From NCBI RefSeq assembly GCF_005930475.1, contig NZ_SJEW01000035.1, positions 1 through 50,425 on the forward strand: a DNA stretch of 50,425 bases, read 5' to 3'. Under the pieces are notes generated by a model. That model saw only the letters and a list, made by a program, of their open reading frames with translations. It ran no database searches and was not told the origin of the DNA. The DNA comes from Modestobacter altitudinis (lineage in GTDB: Bacteria; Actinomycetota; Actinomycetes; Mycobacteriales; Geodermatophilaceae). Shown in pieces: positions 47,005 through 50,425 of this stretch (position 1 is its first letter; each line of letters begins with the position of its first letter). A program made the position numbers and the translations under genes.

Positions 47005-47760
47005 TCAGGCGGCGGTCTCGGCGGCGTTCTCGGCCTGGGCGGGGTCCTGCCCCTGGCCGAGGAACCGCGCGTACAGGACGGCCGCCAGGACGCCACCGAG
47101 CACCGGGCCGAGCACGTAGGCCCACGCGCCGTCGAAGGTGCCGGCCACGATCATCGGGCCCAGGGCGCGGGCCGGGTTGACCGCTCCGCCGGAGAGCGGG
47201 CCGGCCACCAGCACCCCGACGGCCAGGGTGAACCCGACGGCCAGGCCCGCGGCGCCCTTGGCCACCCGGCTGTCGGTGGCCACCGAGACGATGACCAGCA
47301 CGAGGAAGAAGGTCACGACCGCCTCGATGACGAACACGGTCAGCGTGCTGACCCCGCCACCGGGCAGCGTCGCGGCCAGCGAGGCGGAGTCGCGGGCGGC
47401 GTCCCCGTAGGTGAGCCACACGGTGAGGCTGGCCAGGACGGCGCCGCCGAGCTGGGCCAGCAGGTAGGCCGGCACGTACCGCCACGGGAACGCGCCGGTG
47501 ACCGCCAGCGCCAGGGTGACGGCCGGGTTCAGGTGGGCGCCGGACACGTGGCCGAGTGCGTTGACCAGCGCCACCAGCGCGAGGCCGAAGGCCAGCGCGA
47601 TGGCCAGCGAGTCGGCCGTCCCGCCGGCGATCGGCTGGTCGAGCAGCGCGGCGGCGGCGACCGAGGTCCCGGCGAGGACCAGCAGATAGGTGCCGATCAG
47701 CTCAGCGATGGCGACGCGCGGGACGTTCTGGGTGGTGCTGCTGCCGTAGAGGCCGGACAT
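47005..47760 (-). CDS. Aquaporin / MIP-family channel
   Basis: The 251-residue protein has six membrane helices and both NPA boxes, HLNPAVTL near residue 78 and GAVNPARAL near 194. The first half has AELIGTYLLVLAGTS, typical of AqpZ-like channels. It would conduct water or small neutral solutes; water against glycerol cannot be decided by eye. A GGAGAAGAG region precedes the ATG. It converges with the amidohydrolase gene across only nine bases. Confidence 0.93.
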   Translation of the reverse strand: MSGLYGSSTTQNVPRVAIAELIGTYLLVLAGTSVAAAALLDQPIAGGTADSLAIALAFGLALVALVNALGHVSGAHLNPAVTLALAVTGAFPWRYVPAYLLAQLGGAVLASLTVWLTYGDAARDSASLAATLPGGGVSTLTVFVIEAVVTFFLVLVIVSVATDSRVAKGAAGLAVGFTLAVGVLVAGPLSGGAVNPARALGPMIVAGTFDGAWAYVLGPVLGGVLAAVLYARFLGQGQDPAQAENAAETAA

Positions 47761-47864: not shown

Positions 47865-48941
47865 TCAGGTACGGCGGGGCTCGTCGGCCTGGGCGGCCGG
47901 GGCGGTGCGCCCGGCCTCGTCGGTGTCCACCGCTGCCTCGCCGCCGGCCACCCGCGGCCGCTCGTCGTCGTCCGGGGTCTCGCCGCGGGTCTTGAGCAGG
48001 CTGGCGACGGTGGCGATGACCAGCACGCCGAGGATCACGGTGAGCGAGAGCCAGATCGGGATCTCCGGGACCGCCTCGATGTGCTCGCCGCCGTTGATGA
48101 ACGGCAGCTCGTTGGTGTGCAGCGCCTCCATGATCAGCTTGACGCCGATGAAGGCCAGGATCACCGCCAGGCCGATCGAGAGGTAGACCAGCCGCTTGAG
48201 CAGCCCGCCGAGCAGGAAGTAGAGCTGGCGCAGGCCCATCAACGCGAAGATGTTCGCGGTGAAGACGATGAACGGCTCCTTGGTGAGCCCGAAGATCGCC
48301 GGGATGCTGTCCAGCGCGAACAGCAGGTCGGTCGTGCCCAGCGCCAGGAACACCACGATCATCGGCGTCCAGAACTTCTTGCCGTCCTGGGTGACCCGGA
48401 TCTTGCTCTCGTGGAAGTCCTGGGTGATCGGCAGGACCTTGCGCATCCGCCGGATGAGCGCGTTCTCCTCGTAGTCCTCGTCCTCGCCCCGGTGCCGGAC
48501 CAGGTTGATGGCGGTGTACACGAGGAAGGCGCCGAAGATGTAGAAGACCCAGGTGAAGCGCTCGATCACCGCGGCGCCCAGCAGGATGAAGACCCCGCGG
48601 AGCACGAGCGCGATGATGATCCCGACCATCAGGACCTCTTGCTGCAGCTTCCGGGGCACCTGGAAGCGCGCCATGATGATCACGAAGACGAAGAGGTTGT
48701 CGACCGACAGCGAGTACTCGGTCAGCCAGCCGGCGTAGAACTCGGTCGCGAACTGGCCGTTGGTGACCGCGAGGACGACCGCCCCGAAGACCAGCGCCAG
48801 GGCGACGTAGAAGACGACCCAGGCGGTCGCCTCCTTCACCGACGGCTCGTGCGGACGGCGGACGACGAGGGCCAGGTCGGCGAGCAACAGGACCGTCAGC
48901 CCCACGAACGTCGCGACCTCGAACCAGACGGGGAGCTCCAC
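47865..48941 (-). CDS. TerC/Alx family membrane protein (paralogue 2)
   Basis: The 358-residue protein has about nine helices and TerC landmarks: SVDNLFVFVIIMARF, LFALDSIPAIFGLT with acidic membrane residues, LMGLRQLYFLLGG and FIGVKLIMEALHTNEL. TerC/Alx proteins are linked to manganese export or metal loading of exported proteins. The last 55 residues form an acidic cytoplasmic tail. The GTG at 48941 follows a TAGAGT box by eight bases, so it seems to have its own leaderless promoter. The next gene upstream is a paralogue with the same topology. Confidence 0.93.
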   Translation of the reverse strand: MELPVWFEVATFVGLTVLLLADLALVVRRPHEPSVKEATAWVVFYVALALVFGAVVLAVTNGQFATEFYAGWLTEYSLSVDNLFVFVIIMARFQVPRKLQQEVLMVGIIIALVLRGVFILLGAAVIERFTWVFYIFGAFLVYTAINLVRHRGEDEDYEENALIRRMRKVLPITQDFHESKIRVTQDGKKFWTPMIVVFLALGTTDLLFALDSIPAIFGLTKEPFIVFTANIFALMGLRQLYFLLGGLLKRLVYLSIGLAVILAFIGVKLIMEALHTNELPFINGGEHIEAVPEIPIWLSLTVILGVLVIATVASLLKTRGETPDDDERPRVAGGEAAVDTDEAGRTAPAAQADEPRRT

Positions 48942-48949
48942 GGGTCACG

Positions 48950-48955
48950 ACTCTA
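48950..48955 (-). promoter_or_regulatory. -10 element (TAGAGT) of terC paralogue 2, leaderless type
   Basis: TAGAGT on the minus strand ends eight bases before the GTG at 48941, giving this gene its own promoter separate from the riboswitch-controlled paralogue. Confidence 0.45.
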
Positions 48956-49013
48956 CGGGTCACTCCCCGGGTGTACCGGCCAACGAATTCGTGCCCGCAG
49001 ACACGGACGGCAC

Positions 49014-49046
49014 GGGCCGGGGACGACGCGTCGTCGTCCCCGGCCC
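49014..49046 (-). terminator. 15-bp hairpin between the two terC genes
   Basis: Arms 49014-49028 and 49032-49046 are perfectly complementary around a three-base loop, 17 bases after the stop of the first terC gene. It should stop transcription from the riboswitch-controlled gene before the second. Confidence 0.8.
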
Positions 49047-49063
49047 AAGAGCGTGCTGTGCGG

Positions 49064-50176
49064 TCAGTCGGTGCGCGCCGAGGACGGCGCGGTGGCCCGC
49101 TCGGCGGCCGGCGCGGTGGCTGGCTCGGCGCTCCGGGTGCTCGCAGCGGTGGCCCCGCCGGTGATCCCGGAGGCAGCGGCGGCGTCCCGGACCCGCCGAC
49201 GCTCGCGGACCTTGCGGTCGTGCCGCAGGCTGGCCAGCGTCGTCACCAGCAGGGTGACCAAGATGACCGCCAGCGACAGCCAGGTCGGGATCTCCGGGAT
49301 CGCGGTGATGTGCTCGCCACCGTTGACCCAGGACAGCTCGTTGGTGTGCAGCGCGTGGATGACGAGCTTGGCGCCGATGAAGGCGAGGATCACCGCGAGG
49401 CCGTAGGCCAGGTACACCAGCCGGTCGAGCAGCCCGTCGATGAGGAAGAAGAGCTGCCGCAGACCCAGCAGCGAGAACGCGTTGGCGGCGAAGACCAGGT
49501 AGGTGTCCTGGGTCAGACCGAAGATCGCCGGGATCGAGTCGACGGCGAAGATGATGTCGGCGGTGCCGATGGCGATCAGCGCGATGGCCAGCGGGGTGAT
49601 GTACCGCTTGCCCTGCACGGTGACCGTCATCTTGTCGTCGTGGTGCTCTTCGGTCGTCGGGACGACCTTGCGCACCAGCCGCAGGACGGCGTTCTCCTGG
49701 TACTCCTCGTCGCCGTTGTGACCACCGCTGCGGGCCTGCACCCAGGCGGTGTAGATGAGGATGGCGCCGAAGAGGTAGAAGACCCAGCTGAAGTTCTCGA
49801 TCGCCGCGGCGCCGACGAGGATGAAGATCGTCCGCAGCACCAGCGCGAAGGTGATGCCGAACAGCAGCACCTTCTGCTGGGCGATCCGCGGGACGCCGAA
49901 GCTGGCCATGATGAGGACGAACACGAAGAGGTTGTCCACCGAGAGGCTCTTCTCGGTGATGTAGCCGGCGAAGTACTCACCGCCCGGGGTCGCTCCGCCG
50001 AACCAGAGCACCAGCAGGCCGAAGACGACGGCGATGCCGATGTAGACCGCCGACCAGGTGGCCGCCTCGCGCAGCGAGGGTGCGTGCGGGGTCCGGACGT
50101 GGCCGACGAAGTCGAAGACCAGCATCCCGACGATCGCGGCGATGGTGATCGCCCAGATCCAGAAGGGGACGTCCAT
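49064..50176 (-). CDS. TerC/Alx family membrane protein (paralogue 1, riboswitch-controlled)
   Basis: The 370-residue protein is a TerC-family integral membrane protein with SVDNLFVFVLIMASF, IFAVDSIPAIFGLT, LLGLRQLFFLIDG and FIGAKLVIHALHTNEL, closely parallel to the neighbour at 47865-48941. Family members are tied to Mn2+ efflux or metalation of secreted enzymes, and their genes are a classic target of the yybP-ykoY manganese riboswitch. Such an element is present in its leader. GGAGGA lies 10 bases before the ATG at 50176 and can be masked by that leader. The C-terminal tail is Ala/Arg-rich. Confidence 0.94.
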   Translation of the reverse strand: MDVPFWIWAITIAAIVGMLVFDFVGHVRTPHAPSLREAATWSAVYIGIAVVFGLLVLWFGGATPGGEYFAGYITEKSLSVDNLFVFVLIMASFGVPRIAQQKVLLFGITFALVLRTIFILVGAAAIENFSWVFYLFGAILIYTAWVQARSGGHNGDEEYQENAVLRLVRKVVPTTEEHHDDKMTVTVQGKRYITPLAIALIAIGTADIIFAVDSIPAIFGLTQDTYLVFAANAFSLLGLRQLFFLIDGLLDRLVYLAYGLAVILAFIGAKLVIHALHTNELSWVNGGEHITAIPEIPTWLSLAVILVTLLVTTLASLRHDRKVRERRRVRDAAAASGITGGATAASTRSAEPATAPAAERATAPSSARTD

Positions 50177-50185
50177 GCGTGAGTT

Positions 50186-50316
50186 CCTCCGGTGCTACTG
50201 GCAGATGCGTCAGTACCCGGAGGTCTCTCCCACCGACCTGGTCGCGGTCGGCCGGCAGCGCCGGAGGTCATGGGACCTCGTGTTGACGACGGTGCCGCGG
50301 CGGGATACTCCCCTCC
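50186..50316 (-). promoter_or_regulatory. yybP-ykoY-type Mn2+ riboswitch with RBS-masking hairpin
   Basis: On the minus strand the leader contains, in order: GGAGGGGAGTA (50316-50306), GTCAACA (50287-50281), and GAGACCTCC (50227-50219). These match the conserved loops and the 3' end of the manganese riboswitch, with GGAGG/CCTCC closing helix P1. Downstream, CCTCCGG (50223-50217) can instead pair with CCGGAGG (50192-50186), which contains the ribosome binding site; an inner TACTG/CAGTA pairing (50215-50211 with 50200-50196) helps the alternative stem. Formation of P1 would free the RBS, so Mn2+ should turn translation on. Confidence 0.8.
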
Positions 50317-50372
50317 ACGTCGAACCGGCTCCGCACGAGCGCCATCGCCCGGCGGACCGCGATTCGTCAGCA

Positions 50373-50386
50373 GGTGAACGCTCACC
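50373..50386 (-). promoter_or_regulatory. Inverted repeat upstream of the riboswitch
   Basis: GGTGA-N4-TCACC is a small palindrome about 57 bases upstream of the riboswitch P1, in the probable promoter region of the terC gene. It could be an operator; no regulator is identified. The rest of 50317-50425 shows no gene. Confidence 0.25.
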
Positions 50387-50425
50387 CGGACCCGCGAGTT
50401 CCCAACGCCCCCGCCGCCCGCCCAC

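Follow-up and report, generated by a model that had tools for sequence, protein, structure and literature searches.

A P2-less yybP-ykoY-type aptamer in the terC leader of Modestobacter altitudinis and a related aptamer before a duplicated sigE gene

The element GAGACC is among those that define the yybP-ykoY class of riboswitches, and alx, one of the E. coli genes with a leader of this family, is itself a TerC-family gene. In the Mn2+ aptamers of L. lactis and X. oryzae, L3 has seven bases and starts with UCA (UCAAUUC in L. lactis), P1.1 is the switch helix and is stabilised by the ligand, and the N7 of an L3 adenosine (A41 in L. lactis, A48 in X. oryzae) contacts Mn2+ (PMC6754395). The E. 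coli mntP and alx riboswitches belong to the same family as the leader described below; for mntP, translation initiation is said to be turned on by manganese (PMC9603457). The actinobacterial terC gene of C. glutamicum, cg2157, has an expressed yybP-ykoY leader for which a score of 49.13 bits against RF00080 is given, based on the 2013 version of Rfam (PMC3890552).

The window, i.e. the whole stretch of DNA that was analysed (50,425 nucleotides from Modestobacter altitudinis; assembly GCF_005930475.1, contig NZ_SJEW01000035.1), carries a leader of this type upstream of terC. The leader is on the minus strand (50186-50318); a preliminary description had located it correctly but had not named the strand. 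The order of elements given there was borne out, with GGGGAGTA, GTCGTCAACACG and GAGACC following each other in the minus-strand leader. Its helix P1 is present, too, with GGAGG (50316-50312) paired to CCTCC (50223-50219; P1.1), as is the 7-base complementarity of CCTCCGG and CCGGAGG. The description was silent on helix P1.2 (TCCC/GGGA), on the absence of P2, on a sigma-E-type motif at 50402-50377, and on another aptamer that the genome has outside the window. The features of the leader and its gene are given below. Counts refer to an alignment of 30 leaders from the family Geodermatophilaceae, and R1 is a covariance model built from the 30 family aptamers, the E-values of which are rough.

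50217-50318, minus: yybP-ykoY-type aptamer, as delimited by its match to R1 (116.3 bits, E 1.4e-20; not an independent score, the window sequence being among the 30 used to build R1)
50312-50316, minus: P1.1 5' strand GGAGG, partner CCTCC at 50219-50223 (paired in 30/30; L019 and L023 differ in both bases of one pair)
50306-50313, minus: GGGGAGTA, the last two P1.1 bases and the L1 5' strand (30/30 leaders)
50302-50305, minus: P1.2 5' strand TCCC, partner GGGA at 50228-50231 (paired in 30/30; CCCC/GGGG in L005, TTCC/GGAA in L019)
50279-50290, minus: GTCGTCAACACG, the end of P3.1 and L3 (A of GTCA invariant in 30/30)
50264-50279, minus: P3.2 hairpin GAGGTC-CCAT-GACCTC (96.7% of cells paired; three pairs with changes on both sides)
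50233-50251, minus: P4 hairpin CCGACC..GGTCGG (95% of cells paired; changes on both sides in 5 of 6 pairs)
50222-50227, minus: GAGACC, L1 3' strand running into P1.1 (invariant in the 30-sequence alignment)
50217-50223, minus: CCTCCGG, P1.1 3' strand and two further bases; alternative partner of the ribosome binding site (7-bp complement of 50186-50192)
50186-50192, minus: CCGGAGG, ribosome binding site (RBS), nine bases 5' of the ATG; predicted to be sequestered in the OFF state
49064-50176, minus: terC, the controlled gene, coding for a TerC/Alx family metal homeostasis membrane protein (Pfam TerC, 167 bits; NCBIfam TIGR03718 'R_switched_Alx', 374.4 bits, cut-off 246.4)

Among named relatives, the TerC protein shows 92% sequence identity to that of Modestobacter excelsi and 98% to that of Geodermatophilaceae bacterium URHA0031 (over residues 1-319).

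The aptamer resembles those of L. lactis and X. oryzae in having a seven-base L3 starting with UCA (UCAACAC in the window) and P1.1 as switch helix. Its GTCA adenosine corresponds to A41 and A48, respectively (PMC6754395), and in L1 it shares the letters GGGAGUA with the consensus of RF00080. It differs from them by its high GC content, by an RBS platform in place of a terminator, and by a three-way junction without P2. The bases between P1.2 and P3.1 are too few for a P2 hairpin, both in the window and in its alignment, so that the feature of the crystallised four-way junctions, a P2 between P1.2 and P3, is missing. The window aptamer is thus a predicted three-way junction, unlike the crystallised aptamers. 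P2 is regarded here as a subtype feature, partly because a GDT1-type leader with a sub-threshold RF00080 match (L064, 29.6 bits) also seems to leave no room for it. Compared to E. coli mntP and alx, the window leader has a sigma-E-type promoter motif upstream. In the window, the P1.1 3' strand is itself the anti-RBS strand. The difference from C. glutamicum cg2157 is that the form found in Geodermatophilaceae is under the cut-off of current RF00080 or unmatched by it.

A TerC search of 112 genomes of the family resulted in matches in 104, and 30 of the loci were used for the leader alignment. GGGGAGTA, GTCA with its invariant A, and GAGACC are found in each of the 30 leaders, and so are the L1 strands GGGGAGUA and GAGACC, which belong to the conserved core of yybP-ykoY. 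The structure consisting of P1.1, P1.2, P3.1, P3.2, and P4 has 96.9% of its cells paired, and this value falls to 35-53% when the partner strand is slid. Of 29 pairs, 13 are changed on both sides; each helix includes compensatory changes, and not one of 500 shuffles was as high on any measure. On this comparative evidence, we regard the five helices as real. Conservation and covariation in relatives support the earlier assignment to the yybP-ykoY class, and we take the window leader to be a member of this known class, in a P2-less form which is missed by the current Rfam model.

That model requires comment. The preliminary description had named a search with RF00080 as a check, and a missing hit was to count against the riboswitch. 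RF00080 matched nothing in the window or in the organism's own genome, nor anything around the leader at E up to 10; formally, this goes against that description. With membership by score set at 45 bits or more, the leader is filed as a homologue of the class only, not as a member of RF00080. The conclusion that no RF00080 match means no riboswitch was nevertheless rejected: the RF00080 consensus, as printed against the one sub-threshold match (L064), lacks the closing P1 pairs and ends without GAGACC. We thus infer from this printed consensus that the miss is a false negative which reflects a limit of the model. A permissive RF00080 scan of 16 of the 30 relatives matched a single leader (L015, 18.5 bits, E 0.54). 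Searches of 394 genomes of the class Actinomycetes and of 112 family genomes returned 10 each (at E up to 0.01 and E up to 1, respectively), none over the cut-off; these searches were strictly filtered, with 6 (class) or 21 (family) first-look candidates scored per genome, so that losses are possible. Control genomes were matched in 3 to 5 of 14 cases, 2 of these over the cut-off.

Model R1 matched 242 of the 394 class genomes (E up to 0.01), 104 of the 112 family genomes (E up to 1e-4), and 80 of 80 named terC loci (some of these genomes also having contributed to R1). The genes next to R1 matches were examined at 111 loci, composed of 31 loci and 80 rows hand-picked from the class list. The element has the position typical of its class, before genes for manganese handling (TerC/Alx, exporters): tblastn with the next 900 bases assigned terC to 95 loci, sigE to one, and none to 15, and 11 of these 15 precede an ORF in which ELGDK, the signature of GDT1 exporters, is repeated (two were tested, both Pfam GDT1). 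The four loci left without an assigned gene are L102, L115, L121, which has no Pfam match, and L126, which matches PGPGW. The current Rfam model thus overlooks most of the riboswitch class in Actinomycetes (242 of 394 genomes with R1, 10 of 394 with RF00080), and manganese regulation is therefore probably under-annotated in these organisms.

Variants of the element are also carried by further TerC-like genes, recognised by eye, and GDT1-type genes (L278-L286, L088, L108, and L134). Before GDT1 genes, the L3 region reads GTCGACAYACTG.

The complementarity of CCTCCGG and the RBS in a single terC leader is no proof of a switch, because CCGGAGG alone is not rare (31 occurrences in the 50 kb when both strands are counted) and P3 of this leader contains another CCTCCGG. 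We therefore rely on comparison. With G-U pairs allowed, a helix of 7-9 bases between the P1.1 3' strand and the RBS is possible in every one of the 30 close leaders; covariation of this OFF helix was not found within these 30. Class-wide, among 95 terC leaders, the OFF helix reaches 7 Watson-Crick pairs or more in 76; a helix of this length is absent from the other 19, several of them from the same order. Where the P1 strand is other than CCTCCGG, the matching helix is kept in 11 of 24 terC leaders, compared to 35 of 2568 swapped pairs (matched variants are CCTTCGG/CCGAAGG and CCTTGTG/CACAAGG); with G-U pairs allowed, the test is weaker (13/24 vs. 877/2568). All 111 loci were used for this test, an earlier pass having skipped 6 of them through its anchor pattern. 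With the RBS changing along with P1 across the class, the P1.1 3' strand fits two partners, which is the property needed for a switch.

By folding, the ground state is predicted to be strongly OFF. In the unconstrained fold of the window, the RBS has an unpaired probability of 0.001 and the OFF pair a probability of 0.99. The OFF fold is better than the metal-free aptamer fold by 7.0 kcal/mol in the window and by a median of 11.5 kcal/mol in the 30 leaders, under an energy model which excludes tertiary docking and metal. When the aptamer is imposed, the median probability of an unpaired RBS in the 30 leaders rises from 0.0007 to 0.23, exceeding 0.5 in only three of them. The RBS of the window itself reaches only 0.02, its partner now being the beginning of the coding sequence, and it stays paired whether P1 alone or the whole aptamer is imposed; for this reason we do not claim that the ON state is reproduced by folding. 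Of the mutually exclusive switch between P1 and the RBS put forward in the preliminary description, the helix is supported by comparison, but folding hardly frees the RBS of the window with the aptamer imposed. That the metal-bound aptamer would free the RBS is what we infer.

We consider it highly likely that translation of terC is controlled by a yybP-ykoY-type aptamer in the leader of its mRNA, with the CCTCCGG-RBS pairing as OFF and aptamer helix P1.1 as ON state. The basis of this reading is the aptamer structure shown by covariation, the matched switch helix shown by comparison, and the identity of terC. In the metal-free state, CCTCCGG of the P1.1 3' strand would pair with CCGGAGG of the RBS, in a stem that is shortly extended, and terC would be off. 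Once the aptamer is folded and stabilised (by Mn2+, as homology suggests), CCTCC would be held in P1.1, leaving the RBS usable so that TerC could be made. With the OFF fold better than the metal-free aptamer fold by about 7 kcal/mol, the choice is probably kinetic, the aptamer presumably being the first to emerge from RNA polymerase. By analogy to the described systems, the switch very probably senses manganese, and the terC leader itself would be an expected manganese riboswitch.

The same aptamer might act mainly on transcription or through Rho, with the metal-free hairpin halting or exposing the transcript and the RBS pairing being secondary. In other bacteria, yybP-ykoY works at the level of transcription or translation (PMC6754395, PMC11087558), and the 19 of 95 terC leaders without a 7-bp RBS helix would be accommodated. 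We nevertheless find this unlikely: a terminator scan of 48700-50425 gave two sites, both inside terC and none in the leader, and the OFF partner includes the RBS in 30/30 close leaders and changes along with P1 in distant ones. Even less probable, in our view, is an aptamer responding to another ion or to pH instead of Mn2+. GGGGAGTA and the L3 adenosine matching the Mn2+ contact are invariant in 30/30, and R1 matches mostly precede TerC/Alx and GDT1-type genes; these observations outweigh the missing P2 and the response of the E. coli mntP and alx switches to alkaline pH as well (PMC9603457). The absence of an Rfam match and the frequency of CCGGAGG could be taken to mean that the elements arose by chance in GC-rich DNA, or that they are a conserved coding or DNA feature and no RNA switch. 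The compensatory changes in every helix, the loss of pairing upon strand sliding, and the fact that 95 of 111 examined matches precede terC make this so improbable that it can practically be set aside. We thus prefer translational control of terC by a manganese-sensing aptamer.

The transcription of terC may be regulated as well. Upstream of the leader is found:

50377-50402, minus: GGAAC-N17-CGTT, sigma-E/sigma-H-type ECF promoter motif, 89 bases 5' of GGGGAGTA

This sequence has the features of a sigma-E-dependent promoter as known from C. glutamicum, where the sigma-H/sigma-E consensus is GGAAC-N17-18-cGTT (PMC10012870); a sigma-70 promoter scan gave nothing. Of the 30 relatives, 24 have the motif upstream (most often at -84 to -103) and 6 lack it, the controls being 2/30 on the opposite strand and a mean of 0.1/30 in mononucleotide shuffles. 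At the named loci, which overlap the 30, it was found in 41 of 62 cases from Geodermatophilaceae and in 3 of 18 from other families (random placements: 94/6200). It is a family trait at most. Sigma-E may thus govern terC at the level of transcription and manganese at that of translation, envelope stress being the signal that would act through the sigma-E-type motif.

It is a copy of sigE that makes the finding in the terC leader worth following. The R1 search of the organism's own genome revealed one further match (71.5 bits, E 4.7e-11). It lies 23 bases 5' of the ATG of a gene whose product scores 340.9 bits against NCBIfam SigE (cut-off 265):

G000:C139:43225-43323 (= L061:1501-1599), plus: the other R1 aptamer of this genome, preceding a duplicated sigE

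This leader keeps GGGGAGTA, CCCC/GGGG, GTCGTCAGTACG, and GAGACC, with P1.1 changed to GTAGG/CCTGC. It runs on into CCTGCCGAC...GTTGGAGG, a hairpin able to block the RBS; in the aptamer leaders of sigE, this RBS-blocking hairpin is CCT-CCGAC/GTTGG-AGG. Of 30 sigE loci retrieved from the family, 4 have the aptamer, and at least 8 of the 112 family genomes, from four genera, have it directly before a sigE copy (G000, which is the own genome, G092, G086, G087, G098, G107, G053, and G033; the genes in G053 and G033 run into contig ends). Covariation within the 8 sigE leaders is weak (one pair with changes on both sides; 54 of 500 shuffles as high), and the own-genome leader does not fold with unusual stability (z -0.59). 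We take these leaders as aptamers because of their R1 scores (63.7-75.9 bits) and their intact core. An in-frame ORF start (L061:1491) spans the sigE aptamer of the own genome. Measured from GTAGGGG to the start codon, four leaders give a distance of 120 and the others 123 (G107), 119 (G053), 122 (G098), and 121 (G033). The reading frame is thus kept in 5 of 8 leaders and lost in 3, which makes a coding role unlikely, if possible for the five.

The canonical sigE copies of G000, G092, G087, and G086 have no aptamer, and in 4 of 4 cases read, an RseA-like gene overlaps their stop codon. In the own genome, the RseA-like protein scores 58.3 bits against RseA, under the cut-off of 165, and is over the cut-off for Pfam zf-HC2. 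Among the two largest ORFs per locus, no RseA-like gene was found after the aptamer copies (4 of 4 read); in the own genome, the gene 3' of the aptamer sigE codes for a CPBP/Rce1-like protease. The GGAAC motif occurs upstream of 29 of 29 sigE copies without aptamer vs. 0 of 8 with aptamer, a count which covers the copies for which the core was found (no core in L178). In a tree of SigE proteins, where L178 again yielded no core, the cores are too similar to be resolved, the two copies of G000 being identical over the core; the duplication cannot be dated from proteins this similar. The tree included six aptamer copies (G053 and G033 left out), which form no group (6 changes, a number as low as this in each of 500 shuffles), and it is compatible with a single origin of the aptamer copies as well as with several.

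A manganese riboswitch before sigE looks new; we found no publication on one in a search that covered mostly titles and the beginnings of abstracts, with most subscription papers and two founding papers from 2015 outside its reach. We tentatively suggest, while giving this somewhat less than even chances, that in Geodermatophilaceae a manganese riboswitch has replaced control by protein (RseA-like neighbour, autoregulated promoter) at a duplicated sigE, and that this sigE forms a coherent feed-forward loop with terC. In such a loop, Mn2+ would promote translation of SigE2, SigE2 would transcribe terC from GGAAC-N17-CGTT, and Mn2+ would promote translation of terC. If this is true, a transcription factor is under the direct control of a metal-sensing RNA, and manganese, TerC, and sigma-E are joined in one circuit, which is testable owing to the aptamer before sigE and the sigma-E-type motif before terC. 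In B. subtilis, TerC is said to metalate secreted enzymes (PMC10550928).

The gene downstream of terC codes for a second member of the same protein family:

47865-48941, minus: second TerC/Alx gene, downstream of terC (Pfam and NCBIfam)
49014-49046, minus: GC-rich hairpin after the terC stop codon and before the second terC gene (from sequence)

The second gene has no R1 element of its own, the R1 search of the own genome having yielded two elements only (terC leader and contig C139). The gap between the two genes (48942-49063, minus) contains the GC-rich hairpin alone. In some relatives, e.g. G062 (G062:C1:2720869-2720971), the second terC gene does have an R1 element of its own. Located 3' of the second terC gene in the window is an aquaporin-like ORF (47005-47760, minus), recognised by eye from its sequence. 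A divergent arrangement is also encountered near the terC cluster, in which a TerC-like gene on the opposite strand, again recognised by eye, carries its own R1 aptamer (L189:937-1037, L186:1100-1200, and L185:3385-3484, all minus); the hosts are Geodermatophilaceae URHB0062, one Blastococcus MAG, and one Modestobacter MAG.
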